Part shown: piece after piece, positions 1-4,449 of the stretch
Layout: each line of letters begins with the position of its first letter
Position numbering within the stretch: position 1 is the stretch's first letter
Source of the DNA: Chloroflexota bacterium
Lineage (GTDB): Bacteria; Chloroflexota; Dehalococcoidia; Bin125
Reading direction: 5' to 3'
Assembly (NCBI GenBank): GCA_027296805.1
Contig: JAPUIR010000428.1
Span: 1 to 6,869, forward strand
Length of the DNA stretch: 6,869 nucleotides
Position numbers and translations under genes: made by a program
The notes under the pieces: model-generated
The model's input: the letters and a program-made list of their open reading frames with translations, nothing else
What the model was told of the DNA's origin: nothing
The model's database searches: none

Positions 1-576
<576 letters not shown>

Positions 577-605: not shown

Positions 606-1271
606 TCATTCAGGCTCGGGTGAGCCGCTATCGGCTTCTGTCGCTTCGCCGCTGGCGGCGTCATCTCGCTGCTCGTCGCCCTCTTCATCGTCCTGTCCGG
701 CGCCCACAATCACACGGGCGGGCCGCAAGACTCGGTCACCCAGCAGATACCCCTTTTGCACCTGCGCCAGGATCTGGCCGGCGGGGCCGGGCGCCTGACC
801 GATCGCCTCGTGGAAGTTGGGGTCGAACGGTTGGTGCTCGGCCGCGATCGGCGCCAGCTCCTTTTGCTCCAGGAACTGGTAGAGCTTCTGCTCGATCAGA
901 CGCACCCCGTCGACCCAGGCCGCGGGGTCTGTTGCATGGTCGGCCTCCATCGCGCGTTCGAAGTCGTCCACGACCGCGAGGAAGTCGAGCAAGAGGGCGG
1001 CTTGTGCGCCCCGCACTCGCTCCCCCATCTCTTGCAGCGCTCGCCGCTTGTAGTTCTCGAGGTCTGCCTGCGTCCGTTGCCAGGCCTCCAAGCGCTTGTC
1101 CGCCTCTCCCTTGAGGGTTTCGAGCTCCGCCTTGAGTTCAGCGATCTCGGCCGCCATCGACGCCGCGCTGACGCCGCTGGGTGGGCCCAGCGCGCTGGAA
1201 TCGTTGTCGGCCGACTGCGCGCCTTCGCTGTTGGCGCCGGCGGCCGGGGTGCCGTCTTGCTCGGGGGCCAT
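606..1271 (-). CDS. grpE: GrpE, nucleotide exchange factor of DnaK
   Basis: Cytosolic co-chaperone that releases ADP from DnaK and so resets the Hsp70 cycle. The 221 residues divide into a low-complexity Ala/Gly/Ser N-terminus (about 1-38), a long heptad-like helix (about 39-85, with AELKAELETLK and ADLENYKRR) that fits the GrpE dimer coiled coil, and the compact beta domain. The beta domain carries the family signature: FDPNFHEAI (149-157), then KGYLLGDRVLRPARVIV (173-189). Beyond it is a strongly acidic tail of about 30 residues (DDEEGDE onward), longer than I expect for GrpE. The ATG start has a purine-rich stretch, GAGAGAAGAA, 9 nt upstream. It sits between hrcA (68-bp gap) and dnaK (41-bp gap) with no terminator visible, so it should be co-transcribed and heat-inducible through HrcA. 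Confidence 0.97.
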   Translation of the reverse strand: MAPEQDGTPAAGANSEGAQSADNDSSALGPPSGVSAASMAAEIAELKAELETLKGEADKRLEAWQRTQADLENYKRRALQEMGERVRGAQAALLLDFLAVVDDFERAMEADHATDPAAWVDGVRLIEQKLYQFLEQKELAPIAAEHQPFDPNFHEAIGQAPGPAGQILAQVQKGYLLGDRVLRPARVIVGAGQDDEEGDEQRDDAASGEATEADSGSPEPE

Positions 1272-1339: not shown

Positions 1340-2362
1340 CTAGTAGCCATAGACGCGTTCCATCATTTCCTGGAGCAGCGTGCTGAGGTAATCGACGCTG
1401 GCCACGGAGCGCTCGTAGGGCATCCGAGTGGGGCCCAGCACGCCGACGAAGCCGGTCATTTCATCCTCCGCGCCGTACGGCGCAAAGACCACCGTGCAGC
1501 CGCTCAGCTCTTCGGCGCGGTTCTCGCTGCCAATCACGACCCGCACTCCCCGCTGGCCAAGCTCCGCGCTGGGCACCACCATGTCCGTCACGTGGCGGTC
1601 CATCAGAGCCATCAGATCCACGGCCTGTTCGTGGTTGGCCTGGAACTCCGGCTGGGCCAAGACCCCGCTGATCCCCTCGATGCGGGGACCGATGTCCCGT
1701 GCGGCCTCGTCGTCGAGGACGCGACGAACCGAATCCACCACGACGCGCTCCAGCGGATCGCTGGGGGGCTCTGTGCGGCTCAGCTCGACCCGGGACTTGC
1801 CCGCCAGCCGTTGATTGAGCCGGTGGGAGAGCTCCCCCAAGTCGGAAGCGTCCGTACCCTCCGGCAGGGTCACGAGCTGCTTCAGCACGCGGGCTTCCTT
1901 CAGCACCACGATCAGCAGCGCCATCAATTCCTGCAGGCCGATCAGCTCCACCTGCCGTACTCGCAGCTCGCGTGCCCGGGGCGGCGCCACGATGGCCAGC
2001 AATCCAAGCGAGCGCGCCAGCACGACGGCCGCCAAGTCCAACCATTCGTCGAGTTCGGGGGCGGTCTGGTAGAACTGGTGTCGGATCGTCGCCTTCTCCT
2101 CGCCCGCCAGATCCACCTGACCCATGAGCGATTCCACGAAGAAGCGATACCCCGTCTCGGACGGCACGCGCCCCGCTGAGGTGTGCGGATGCGTAAGGAG
2201 GCCCTCGCTCTCGAGCGCCTTCATCTCGTTGCGGATCGTGGCTGGCGAGGCGGGCAGCGAATACTTCTCGCGGATCGCTTTCGATCCGACAGGCGTCGCG
2301 GTCTCGATGTACTCGTGGACCACGAGGCGAAGAATTCCCGCCCGGCGCTGCGTCAGCGGCAC
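1340..2362 (-). CDS. hrcA: Heat-inducible transcription repressor HrcA
   Basis: DNA-binding repressor of class I heat-shock genes. In the known system it binds CIRCE operators, needs GroEL to stay active, and falls off DNA when chaperonin is busy with misfolded protein. The 340 residues match the family length. The N-terminal winged-helix domain is clear: VVHEYIETATPVGSKAI (14-30), then SPATIRNEMKALESEGLL (39-56) and the wing/linker HTSAGRVPSETGYRFFVE (60-77). The rest fits the GAF-like dimerisation part, ending with FVGVLGPTRMPYERSVASV near the C-terminus, a typical HrcA block. The start is GTG. It is preferred because the protein then begins PLTQRRAGILRLVVHEYIET, as the family does, and GGGAAG lies 9 nt upstream. 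It is the first gene of the operon. A perfect CIRCE lies 21 nt before the start, so autoregulation is very likely. Confidence 0.97.
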   Translation of the reverse strand: MPLTQRRAGILRLVVHEYIETATPVGSKAIREKYSLPASPATIRNEMKALESEGLLTHPHTSAGRVPSETGYRFFVESLMGQVDLAGEEKATIRHQFYQTAPELDEWLDLAAVVLARSLGLLAIVAPPRARELRVRQVELIGLQELMALLIVVLKEARVLKQLVTLPEGTDASDLGELSHRLNQRLAGKSRVELSRTEPPSDPLERVVVDSVRRVLDDEAARDIGPRIEGISGVLAQPEFQANHEQAVDLMALMDRHVTDMVVPSAELGQRGVRVVIGSENRAEELSGCTVVFAPYGAEDEMTGFVGVLGPTRMPYERSVASVDYLSTLLQEMMERVYGY

Positions 2363-2383: not shown

Positions 2384-2410
2384 TTAGCACTCTCCACGTG
2401 AGAGTGCTAA
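2384..2410. promoter_or_regulatory. CIRCE operator (HrcA binding site)
   Basis: Exact match to the CIRCE consensus TTAGCACTC-N9-GAGTGCTAA. The symmetry runs two bases further into the spacer, giving perfect 11-bp arms (2384-2394 and 2400-2410) around a 5-base centre. It lies directly after the hrcA promoter, within about 7 to 35 nt of the predicted transcription start, where bound HrcA would block initiation or early elongation. In the transcript it could also fold into a hairpin in the 5' leader. Confidence 0.97.
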
Positions 2411-2543: not shown

Positions 2544-3761
2544 ATGCCAGATGGAACCGACTCTGAGCCGCGCCGCGTCGTGATCACCGGCGTCGGCGCC
2601 ATTACGGCCGCGGGACCAACCGCCCCCGACCTGTGGACCGCCCTGATCGAAGGGCGCAGTTGCCTGACACCCCTCGCCGACGGCCTCGAACCCCGCTTCG
2701 GTGGGCAGGTCGCGAACTACGAAGGCCCCGCTGGGGTGCCGGAGCGCTTCACGGGGTTGATGGGGCGCAGCGCCCGCTTCGCCCTGGACGCCACGATCCA
2801 GGCCATCGCCGACGCGGATATCCAGTTCAACGCGGAGAACGCCTATTTGGTCGCCGCCCTGATCGGAACGGCCCACGGCCCTGGGGCGACGGAGGGGGGC
2901 GGCCGCGCCCAGCTCAACACCGGACTGGCGGGCGCGACGATCGGCCTCAACATCGCCGGTCCCAGCTTCACCGTCGGGGCGGATGGCGCCTCCGGAGTCA
3001 GTGCGCTCATACAGGCCGCGCAGCTGATTCAAGCCGGGATCGTCAACGTCGCGGTCGCGGGAGGAGCCGAAGCGCCCCTGCGAGAAGACGTCGTCGCGGC
3101 CTACGAAGAGGCCGGCCTGCTCTCCGCCAACAACAGCGCCGATGCCCTGCGCCCGTTCGACGCGCGGCGGGACGGATTGCTGCTGGGCGAGGGCGCGGCC
3201 GTCCTGGTTTTGGAGGACCGCGAGCTCGCCGCGCAACGCGGGGCTCACGTGTACGCGGAGCTCGTTGGCGGCGCGCAAACCGCCGGCCCGCCGGGCGATG
3301 GCGCTCCACCCACCGACGTCACGATCGCCCGCCGCTCGATCGGCGACGCGCTCAAGGTCTGCGGTCTGGCGCCGAGCGAGATCGACATGGTGTTCACGGC
3401 GGGGGCCGGCACCGTGGAAGGCGACAAGCGCGAAACGGACATCTTGGAGCGATCGTTCGGATCGCGCATCCAAGACATGTATCTCACGTCCGTCAGCCCC
3501 ACTGTGGGATACACGGCGGGCGCCGCGGGCGCGATCTCGGCCGCGGCGGCCGCGTTCGCCATCTCGGAGGGGATCGTGCCGCCGCACGCCACCTACGCGG
3601 AACCGGACGCCGATTGCGCGCTGGATATCGCGCAGCGCGTGCAGCGTGATCACCTCTACGGGGCGGTCGTCAGCGCCTACGGCACGATGGGCCAGAACGC
3701 GACCCTCTTGATTCGACGTCACGTGCCGGAGGCTGGCGACGCCATCCCCTTGGCGGAGTAG
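2544..3761 (+). CDS. FabF/KAS II-fold protein lacking the catalytic residues (ketosynthase pseudoenzyme)
   Basis: The thiolase-fold ketosynthase scaffold is clear over 405 residues (FabF is about 412): RRVVITGVGAITAAG at the N-terminus, NVAVAGGAEAPL after the nucleophile loop, LRPFDARRDGLLLGEGAAVLVLED, EGDKRET, and GAAGA near the C-terminus. The active site is gone. In an ungapped comparison with E. coli FabF (from memory), the nucleophilic Cys163 is Gly148 (loop GADGASG in place of ATACTSG), His303 is Ala286 (FTAGAGT for NAHGTST), Lys335 is Ser318, and His340 is Tyr323 (TVGYTAGAAGA). The C-terminal GFGGTN gating loop reads GTMGQN. It should be unable to form the acyl-enzyme or condense malonyl-ACP. 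A scaffold, chain-length-factor-like or ligand-binding role is conceivable, but none is shown. The ATG at 2544 is chosen because the protein then begins a few residues before RRVVITG. GGGAAGG lies 14 nt upstream, rather far. A GTG at 2493 would add 17 residues. Probably co-transcribed with the MBL-fold gene 40 bp on. Confidence 0.9.
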   Translation: MPDGTDSEPRRVVITGVGAITAAGPTAPDLWTALIEGRSCLTPLADGLEPRFGGQVANYEGPAGVPERFTGLMGRSARFALDATIQAIADADIQFNAENAYLVAALIGTAHGPGATEGGGRAQLNTGLAGATIGLNIAGPSFTVGADGASGVSALIQAAQLIQAGIVNVAVAGGAEAPLREDVVAAYEEAGLLSANNSADALRPFDARRDGLLLGEGAAVLVLEDRELAAQRGAHVYAELVGGAQTAGPPGDGAPPTDVTIARRSIGDALKVCGLAPSEIDMVFTAGAGTVEGDKRETDILERSFGSRIQDMYLTSVSPTVGYTAGAAGAISAAAAAFAISEGIVPPHATYAEPDADCALDIAQRVQRDHLYGAVVSAYGTMGQNATLLIRRHVPEAGDAIPLAE

Positions 3762-3801: not shown

Positions 3802-4449
3802 ATGGACATCGCCTGGATCGGACACGCCGCATTTCGCCTGCGCGGTCGCGACGCGGCGGTCGTGATGGACCCCGCCCCCTCCAGCACGGGCTTCCGCTTG
3901 GGGCGGCCCCAGGCCGATCTCGTCACGGTCTCCAACGACGCGCCCGAACACTCCTGGATCGGCGGCGTGGCGGGCGAGCCACTTGAGCTGATCGGCCCCG
4001 GTGAGTACGAGGTGAAGGACGTGCTCGTCACCGGCGTCCCCACGGCCGGACCCCCGGGCAACGGCGACGCGAGACGCAACGTGGCCTTCGTGGTCACGAT
4101 CGACGACATCGTGGTGGCGCACCTGGGCGACATGGGAGCGGCGCCCTCGGGCGACGCCCTAGAGGAGCTCAACCGCGCCGACGTGCTCCTGCTGCCGGTG
4201 GGCGGCAACGGCCACATGGACGTGGAGACCGCCACCAAGATCATGGGTCTGTTGGAGGCGCGCCTGGTCATCCCCATGCTCTACAAGGCGGGCTCGGAGA
4301 GCGGCACGCTCGATTCGATCGACGGATTCCTCAACGCGACGGGGGCGACGCTTCCCGAGGAGACGGAGAACCACATCAATCTCTCGCGGCGCGATCTGCC
4401 CCAGAACACCACGATCCTTGTTCTCTCGCCGCGAGGCGAAACGGACTAG
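3802..4449 (+). CDS. Small metallo-beta-lactamase-fold (UlaG-like, COG2220 type) protein with degenerate metal site
   Basis: The 215 residues follow the layout of the short UlaG-like MBL-fold proteins: MDIAWIGHAAFRL at the N-terminus, VMDP (21-24), ADLVTVS (38-44), IGPGEYEVKDVLVTGVP (64-80), VAHLGDMG (105-112), ADVLLLPVGG (126-135) and RLVIPMLYK (154-162). The family motif HxHxDH, expected at 45-50, reads N-D-A-P-E-H, so only the last His (His50) remains. The usual His of the IPMHY motif is Leu160. I see no His after TGVP. The bridging Asp of HLGD (Asp110) is kept. The protein is therefore unlikely to hold the normal two-metal centre, and hydrolase activity is doubtful. The frame is intact, codon use resembles its neighbours, and the start has an excellent RBS, which argues against simple decay. 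The cellular role is unknown. The substrate of UlaG (ascorbate 6-phosphate lactone) should not be assumed. Confidence 0.88.
   Translation: MDIAWIGHAAFRLRGRDAAVVMDPAPSSTGFRLGRPQADLVTVSNDAPEHSWIGGVAGEPLELIGPGEYEVKDVLVTGVPTAGPPGNGDARRNVAFVVTIDDIVVAHLGDMGAAPSGDALEELNRADVLLLPVGGNGHMDVETATKIMGLLEARLVIPMLYKAGSESGTLDSIDGFLNATGATLPEETENHINLSRRDLPQNTTILVLSPRGETD

Follow-up and report, generated by a model that had tools for sequence, protein, structure and literature searches.

Specialised metabolism offers known cases of dead ketosynthase partners, namely the chain-length factor (CLF, or KSβ) and PqsB. The CLF gene usually adjoins that of the active KSα, usually with an acyl carrier protein (ACP) gene, and glutamine is typical at the position of the nucleophilic cysteine. 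The ketosynthase (KS) and CLF of type II polyketide synthases are described as an obligate heterodimer (PMC12664062). PqsB, of the FabH (β-ketoacyl-ACP synthase III, KAS III) type, is described as a subunit of PqsBC that belongs to the ketosynthase superfamily, lacks the whole catalytic triad and likely serves as a scaffold for PqsC (PMC4807248). Here we analyze a pseudo-ketosynthase (pseudo-KS), a relative of FabF (KAS II), encoded in a stretch of 6,869 nucleotides from a Dehalococcoidia genome (contig JAPUIR010000428.1; the window). In this case, four clades of Cys-less proteins persist across a bacterial class, outside recognised biosynthetic clusters in the loci read. No such pseudo-ketosynthase family was met in the literature searched, the coverage of which was partial.

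Results

The catalytic set is replaced in an intact protein

An earlier note, made from the sequence of the window, had claimed a full-length KAS protein in a clean frame whose catalytic residues are all replaced. Our analysis bears this out. The 405-aa product scores above the Pfam cut-off for both KAS domains (PF00109, 101 bits; PF02801, 66 bits), whereas its NCBIfam fabF score is too low (TIGR03150, 219.4 bits against a cut-off of 493.75); PF08545 and PF08541 are not among its Pfam domains. The catalytic columns were set by alignment to the solved FabF sequences 1e5m, 4ls6 and 4ls5, which returned the four predicted substitutions (Gly148, Ala286, Ser318 and Tyr323; Table 1) and the altered gating loop, GTMGQN in place of the GFGGHN of FabF. 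The alignment to FabF had been described as gap-free, which proved wrong, as about 20 residues are missing before the nucleophile.

The same positions were inspected in 94 relatives, which we call clade A. The nucleophile site is Gly in 75 and Ala in 19, and never Cys. At the His303 site we found Ala in 86, Gly in 3, Ser in 2 and a gap in 3, and at the Lys335 site Thr in 51, Ser in 39 and a gap in 4, with no His or Lys, respectively. His340 is the least complete loss: Tyr is present in 74, Phe in 4, Ala and Trp in 1 each and a gap in 4, while His is kept in 10 (12 in two other alignments). Conservation of the substitutions as a clade, which the earlier note had proposed to check, is thus observed, and no close relative with an intact set was found.

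The missing residues fall between the position of FabF Ile108 and the nucleophile strand. From the Ile108 site to a conserved GP ahead of the nucleophile, the nearest active relatives count 45 residues in 25 of 26 cases and 44 in the other, versus 21–32 residues (mostly 24; 8 in one row) in the 94 clade A relatives. The Ile108 site itself is His in 91 of the 94, Tyr in 2 and a gap in 1. Because this segment is shortened and His occupies the Ile108 position, an acyl sensor using the old FabF pocket, one of the functions suggested earlier, is less likely. A first AlphaFold2 model, from a 20-row alignment, was weak (predicted local distance difference test score of 73); it was redone with 94 rows including active FabF rows, which may pull the model towards FabF.

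The pseudo-KS is a conserved clade under purifying selection

The genome of the window belongs to a family of the class Dehalococcoidia that we label f1; f17, f33 and f66 are other families of the class. A protein search in 61 genomes gave orthologues of 51–62% identity in the 19 other f1 genomes, and among the matches listed none from other families exceeded 38% identity. When 393 class genomes were scanned with a profile (E ≤ 1e-75), the pseudo-KS was present in 20/20 f1 genomes and in 0/373 others. The catalytic losses recur in all 20, and no stops occur within their matches. Nine residues that are rare in active FabF are invariant in these 20 genomes (His111, Asp252, Arg263, Arg296, Asp299, Glu302, Tyr313, His348 and Tyr379).

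A ratio of nonsynonymous to synonymous substitution (dN/dS) near 1 had been named beforehand as a sign of recent decay. We obtained 0.10–0.17 for the six closest pairs and 0.28–0.29 for the next two. Over 165 pairs with a synonymous difference (pS) below 0.65 the median is 0.21 and the maximum 0.62. We rely on the six closest pairs because distant ones approach saturation; genome G006 was left out. These results support a conserved clade under purifying selection.

Nineteen loci with named records come from metagenome-assembled genomes (MAGs) labelled Chloroflexi, Chloroflexota or Dehalococcoidia, including bin125. A re-classification of Chloroflexota gives Ca. Umbricyclopia, equated with the members of Bin125, the rank of an order inside Dehalococcoidia (PMC10608941), and we infer that f1 belongs to this group.

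Three further Cys-less clades occur in other families

The view of the pseudo-KS as an oddity restricted to f1 was dropped once clade B, and then clades C (f17) and D (f66), appeared. Clade B was founded by a KS-like protein without the Cys, encoded at locus L119 of f33 before a gene for a protein of metallo-β-lactamase (MBL) fold. It comprises 104 proteins, with Glu at the Cys site in 95 and Cys in none; Glu for a nucleophilic Cys is an unusual replacement, and here a strongly conserved one. The shortened segment counts 23 residues in 104/104. Clade B is carried by 27 of the 38 f33 genomes counted, the four best candidates per genome being scored, and one of its proteins is labelled Tepidiformaceae by its source.

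Clades C and D were drawn from the best 120 of 822 matches and may be undercounted. Clade C holds at least 113 proteins, with Ala (112) or Arg (1) at the Cys site; Lys335 is kept in 102 and His340 in 109, and the segment is shortened to 18–19 residues in 112 of the 113 proteins listed. Clade D holds at least 8 proteins with Gly at the Cys site and Tyr (7) or His (1) at the His303 site, keeps Lys335 and His340, and has a segment of full length (about 45 residues). We found clade C in 6/8 f17 genomes and clade D in 2/6 f66 genomes. Altogether, the nucleophile site is Cys in 0/319 listed proteins of the four clades, and the full set is present in 43/43 of the nearest active proteins.

For 91 chosen rows, an unrooted tree places all 44 active ones (some few being identical) on one side of a branch with support 100/99. 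On the pseudo side, clade A is nearest the active rows, weakly (85/33). A reduced unrooted tree of 88 rows, from which the segment, catalytic and gating columns and three long rows were removed, splits pseudo (47) from active (41) rows at one branch (99/97; 98% of bootstrap trees). A single origin of the four Cys-less clades would hold if the root lies among active enzymes. The long stems of clades A and B make attraction possible; nevertheless, clades C and D, which are shorter, also group with them. Gene order also agrees with a single origin, as two f66 genomes have FabH-KS-MBL, probably the ancestral order.

These two genomes are G149 (L171), with hrcA, CIRCE (controlling inverted repeat of chaperone expression), FabH, KS and MBL in this order, and G217, with FabH, KS and MBL by coordinates. 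In f66 genomes without the KS (G168, G198 and G234), FabH and MBL stand side by side. FabH is found beside the KS in 2/6 f17 loci (L168; G208 by coordinates). Judged from match extents, 9/11 f33 loci have KS and MBL next to each other, one has them 2.9 kb apart and one is without MBL; neither hrcA nor CIRCE was found at the 11 f33 KS loci read.

The MBL-fold neighbour has lost its metal site

The earlier note had overlooked that the adjacent MBL-fold protein is degenerate as well. The MBL gene is the next same-strand gene after the pseudo-KS in 20/20 f1 genomes, with gaps of up to 1,244 bp; the order comes from open reading frame calling in 19 loci and was recovered by a further search in the twentieth (G003). 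In G006 (L040; G006:C6:34970-35692) the match to the MBL gene is split in two, by either a frame break or an assembly error.

The window MBL protein matches 36/41 other-family genomes at 28–43% identity, as a PF13483 (Lactamase_B_3) MBL of Dehalococcoidia, within which the f1, f33 and f17 copies differ by the loss of most metal-site residues. We scored seven metal-site positions (HxHxDH, His, Asp, His) in the best copy per genome. The window copy keeps 2/7. Of the seven, 1–2 are kept in f1 (19/19 copies scored), 0–2 in f33 (17/17) and 2 in f17 (8/8). The site is retained in f66 (6–7 residues, 5/5) and in 24/27 other families (5–7 residues); most of these 24 have another residue for the Asp of HxHxDH but retain the His. 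A copy was not found or scored in G006 (f1), in the genome of L157, G318, G352 and G357 (f33) and in G250 (f66). A second MBL relative with the full 7/7 is present in three f17 and three f66 genomes.

The MBL is therefore degenerate in the three families with a segment-deleted pseudo-KS (44/44 copies scored) and kept in f66, where the segment is full. The association (3/3 versus 3/28 families) has a chance probability of 0.004, ignoring relatedness. The exceptions are G059 (L113), G022 (L133) and G020 (L134), with a degenerate MBL though 6 strong ketosynthase matches are intact. In addition, a degenerate MBL is present in 7 f33 and 2 f17 genomes in which no pseudo-KS was detected. On these two grounds (3/27 exceptions and the f33 and f17 genomes), we reject the idea that a degenerate MBL strictly depends on the pseudo-KS.

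The locus adjoins a heat-shock operon

In f1, the pseudo-KS gene is divergent from hrcA-grpE-dnaK-dnaJ (grpE recognised in 15/20 loci). CIRCE, identified by its consensus, lies between hrcA and the pseudo-KS in 19/19 f1 loci holding the region, with 0 mismatches in 15, 1 in 1 and 2 in 3. A promoter scan of the window returned one site on the hrcA side and none for the pseudo-KS gene. After the MBL, 16/20 f1 loci have an S15-type hydrolase gene (L041, L043-L057); the window instead has a YjbR gene on the opposite strand. Elsewhere in the same genome (G000:C136; L002, L004), intact ketosynthase genes stand as an adjacent pair near a gene that was named FabD-like from its sequence; their products are candidate partners of the pseudo-KS.

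Table 1. Features of the window
Feature	Positions	Strand	Evidence
dnaK, cut by window end	1..564	-	PF00012, 300.7 bits
grpE, heat-shock operon	606..1271	-	PF01025, 134 bits
hrcA, heat-shock repressor, divergent	1340..2362	-	PF01628, 138.6 bits; conserved neighbour
CIRCE element, HrcA operator, shared divergent intergenic region	2384..2410	.	TTAGCACTC-N9-GAGTGCTAA, 0 mismatches
Pseudo-ketosynthase gene, clade A, FabF/KAS II relative	2544..3761	+	Open frame, 405 aa
His111 codon, FabF Ile108 position	2874..2876	+	Column marked by I108F mutant chain 4ls6 versus wild type 4ls5
Shortened segment, Ile108 position to nucleophile strand	2877..2957	+	About 20 residues fewer than active FabF
Gly148 codon, nucleophile Cys (FabF Cys163) position	2985..2987	+	Alignment to 1e5m/4ls6/4ls5
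Ala286 codon, first catalytic His (FabF His303) position	3399..3401	+	Alignment to solved FabF
Ser318 codon, catalytic Lys (FabF Lys335) position	3495..3497	+	Alignment to solved FabF
Tyr323 codon, second catalytic His (FabF His340) position	3510..3512	+	Alignment to solved FabF
MBL-fold gene, degenerate metal site	3802..4449	+	PF13483, Pfam 124 bits; 40 bp downstream of pseudo-KS

Outside f1, hrcA and CIRCE stand beside the MBL in 11/29 other-family stretches (L107, L108, L117, L118, L123, L124, L126, L130, L131, L134 and L135). The genes between CIRCE and MBL encode FabH (L117, L131), BioY (L117, L118) or a sigma factor (L107, L126, L134); in L108, L124, L130 and L135 the MBL is close to CIRCE. 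Names are Pfam-based for L107, the FabH of L117, L118 and L131, and other inserts were named from sequence. A fatty-acid and biotin theme beside the heat-shock operon is thus seen in other families of the class.

Discussion

A proposed non-catalytic partner of an active ketosynthase

We favour, tentatively and by analogy, the reading that the pseudo-KS is no enzyme but an ancient non-catalytic subunit that partners an active ketosynthase, although we place it somewhat short of an even chance. The earlier note had already listed a structural partner of a distant FabF among its options, and this remains the leading idea. By analogy with CLF and PqsB, it would bind one of the intact FabF paralogues of its own genome; it would be CLF- or PqsB-like in principle only. 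One Cys-less FabF paralogue would have arisen early in Dehalococcoidia within a FabH-KS-MBL gene group that two f66 genomes still have. It would have kept the thiolase-fold dimer surface and paired with one of the intact paralogues, as CLF does with KSα and PqsB with PqsC. In FabF the deleted segment presumably borders the acyl pocket, close to where the dimer subunits meet, so that a pseudo-KS partner would change the acyl tunnel: the missing segment would uncap the tunnel of the partner and alter the chains made. The MBL protein would also have become a non-catalytic component in the three families with the deletion. Co-expression with heat shock through CIRCE is possible.

Taken to its full extent, this proposal becomes rather unlikely as a whole: a FabF paralogue and an MBL protein, both dead and left from the FabH-KS-MBL group, would make up a class-specific non-catalytic complex. 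In lineages with no FabH found, this complex would bind an intact FabF and open the acyl tunnel of that enzyme. If the pair, of which the MBL member has lost its metal site in three families, acts on the fatty-acid synthase, primary metabolism would have in it a factor for chain length or priming. If true, the start and sizing of fatty acids in such bacteria becomes a directly testable question. C20:0 is reported to be a major fatty acid in two Tepidiforma isolates (PMC10284905). This would fit a chain-length factor and proves nothing, the link being the family name of one clade B protein.

Several observations weigh against a partner of an active ketosynthase. The dimer interface may have included the very segment that was deleted. 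The structure predictions are of single chains, and the alignment of the good model holds active FabF rows. No active KS, ACP or other fatty-acid gene is present in the window or was recognised among the conserved neighbours in the 20 f1 loci, and the most constant neighbour is an MBL-fold gene, not a ketosynthase. The statement of the earlier note that no other fatty-acid gene is in view therefore stands for the window; it fails for related loci of other families, which place FabH there. However, no FabH is near the KS in the other four f17 loci read.

FabH, the presumed ancestral companion, also appears to be gone from f1, with matches to PF08545 in 0/20 genomes (E ≤ 1e-10). A FabH protein of the class used as query (E ≤ 0.001) gave no match in 15/16 f1 genomes; in G000 the match was weak and thiolase-like. 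PF08545 was matched in 8/8 f17, 5/6 f66 and 1/20 f33 genomes, the last weakly (7e-11). The two families with the most-reduced pseudo-KS, f1 and f33, are thus without a recognisable FabH, which is no proof, as 18/41 other genomes of the class have a PF08545 match and 23/41 give none. A control was positive in only 8/14 known genomes, so divergent FabH can be missed. Loss of FabH as the cause of the change is weakened by both figures.

Alternative readings

A possible, though less probable, alternative is that the pseudo-KS and the pseudo-MBL form a complex for ligand sensing or scaffolding with no partner in fatty-acid synthesis, tied to stress by its position beside hrcA. It would account for the constant same-strand pairing of the two genes in f1 (20/20) and their adjacency in f33 (9/11 loci), for metal-site loss in f1, f33 and f17 against retention in f66 and most other families, and for the clade-invariant residues rare in active FabF. 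However, the two f17 genes are on different contigs or were not found together, and degenerate MBLs occur without a detected pseudo-KS (7 f33 and 2 f17 genomes) and beside intact ketosynthase matches (G020, G022 and G059).

It is improbable that the protein remains an enzyme whose old pocket holds a new active site, built from His111 and other clade-specific residues in clade A and from Glu in clade B. The near-constant His at the Ile108 position (91/94) and Glu at the Cys position (95/104) speak for such a site, but the residue at the Cys site differs by clade (Gly or Ala in A, mostly Glu in B, Ala in C, Gly in D) and the MBL neighbour has lost its metal site too. Finally, recent decay of the copy, or an error of sequencing or binning, for which the source could give cause (a 2.3-Mb MAG made up of 453 contigs, 79.6% complete and 5.5% contaminated), is ruled out by the 94 relatives with the same losses, an orthologue in every f1 genome examined, dN/dS of 0.10–0.17 and a conserved gene order, with none of the relaxed selection, broken frames or patchy presence of a decaying pseudogene.

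Comparison with known systems

A non-catalytic partner subunit, as we favour, can be set beside three described families. With FabF/KAS II the pseudo-KS shares the KAS fold and both KAS domains; it differs by the absence of the Cys-His-Lys-His set and a score below the TIGR03150 cut-off. Judged by its residues, it would resemble KSβ/CLF, being a KAS II-type protein without the catalytic set. Unlike CLF, it has no KSα, second KS or ACP recognised beside it in 20 f1 loci, and Gln occupies the Cys site in none of the 94 clade A proteins, nor in any of the 319 listed pseudo-KS proteins. The pre-nucleophile segment shortened in clades A, B and C and the MBL-fold neighbour are further differences. 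A plasmid search for annotated CLF gave only generic names among the 60 matches listed. Since both the neighbouring KSα and the Gln are absent, membership in CLF was rejected and the pseudo-KS is not filed there. PqsB offers the other likeness, as a ketosynthase-superfamily protein without the catalytic set; in contrast to its KAS III type, the pseudo-KS is of KAS I/II type (PF00109/PF02801).
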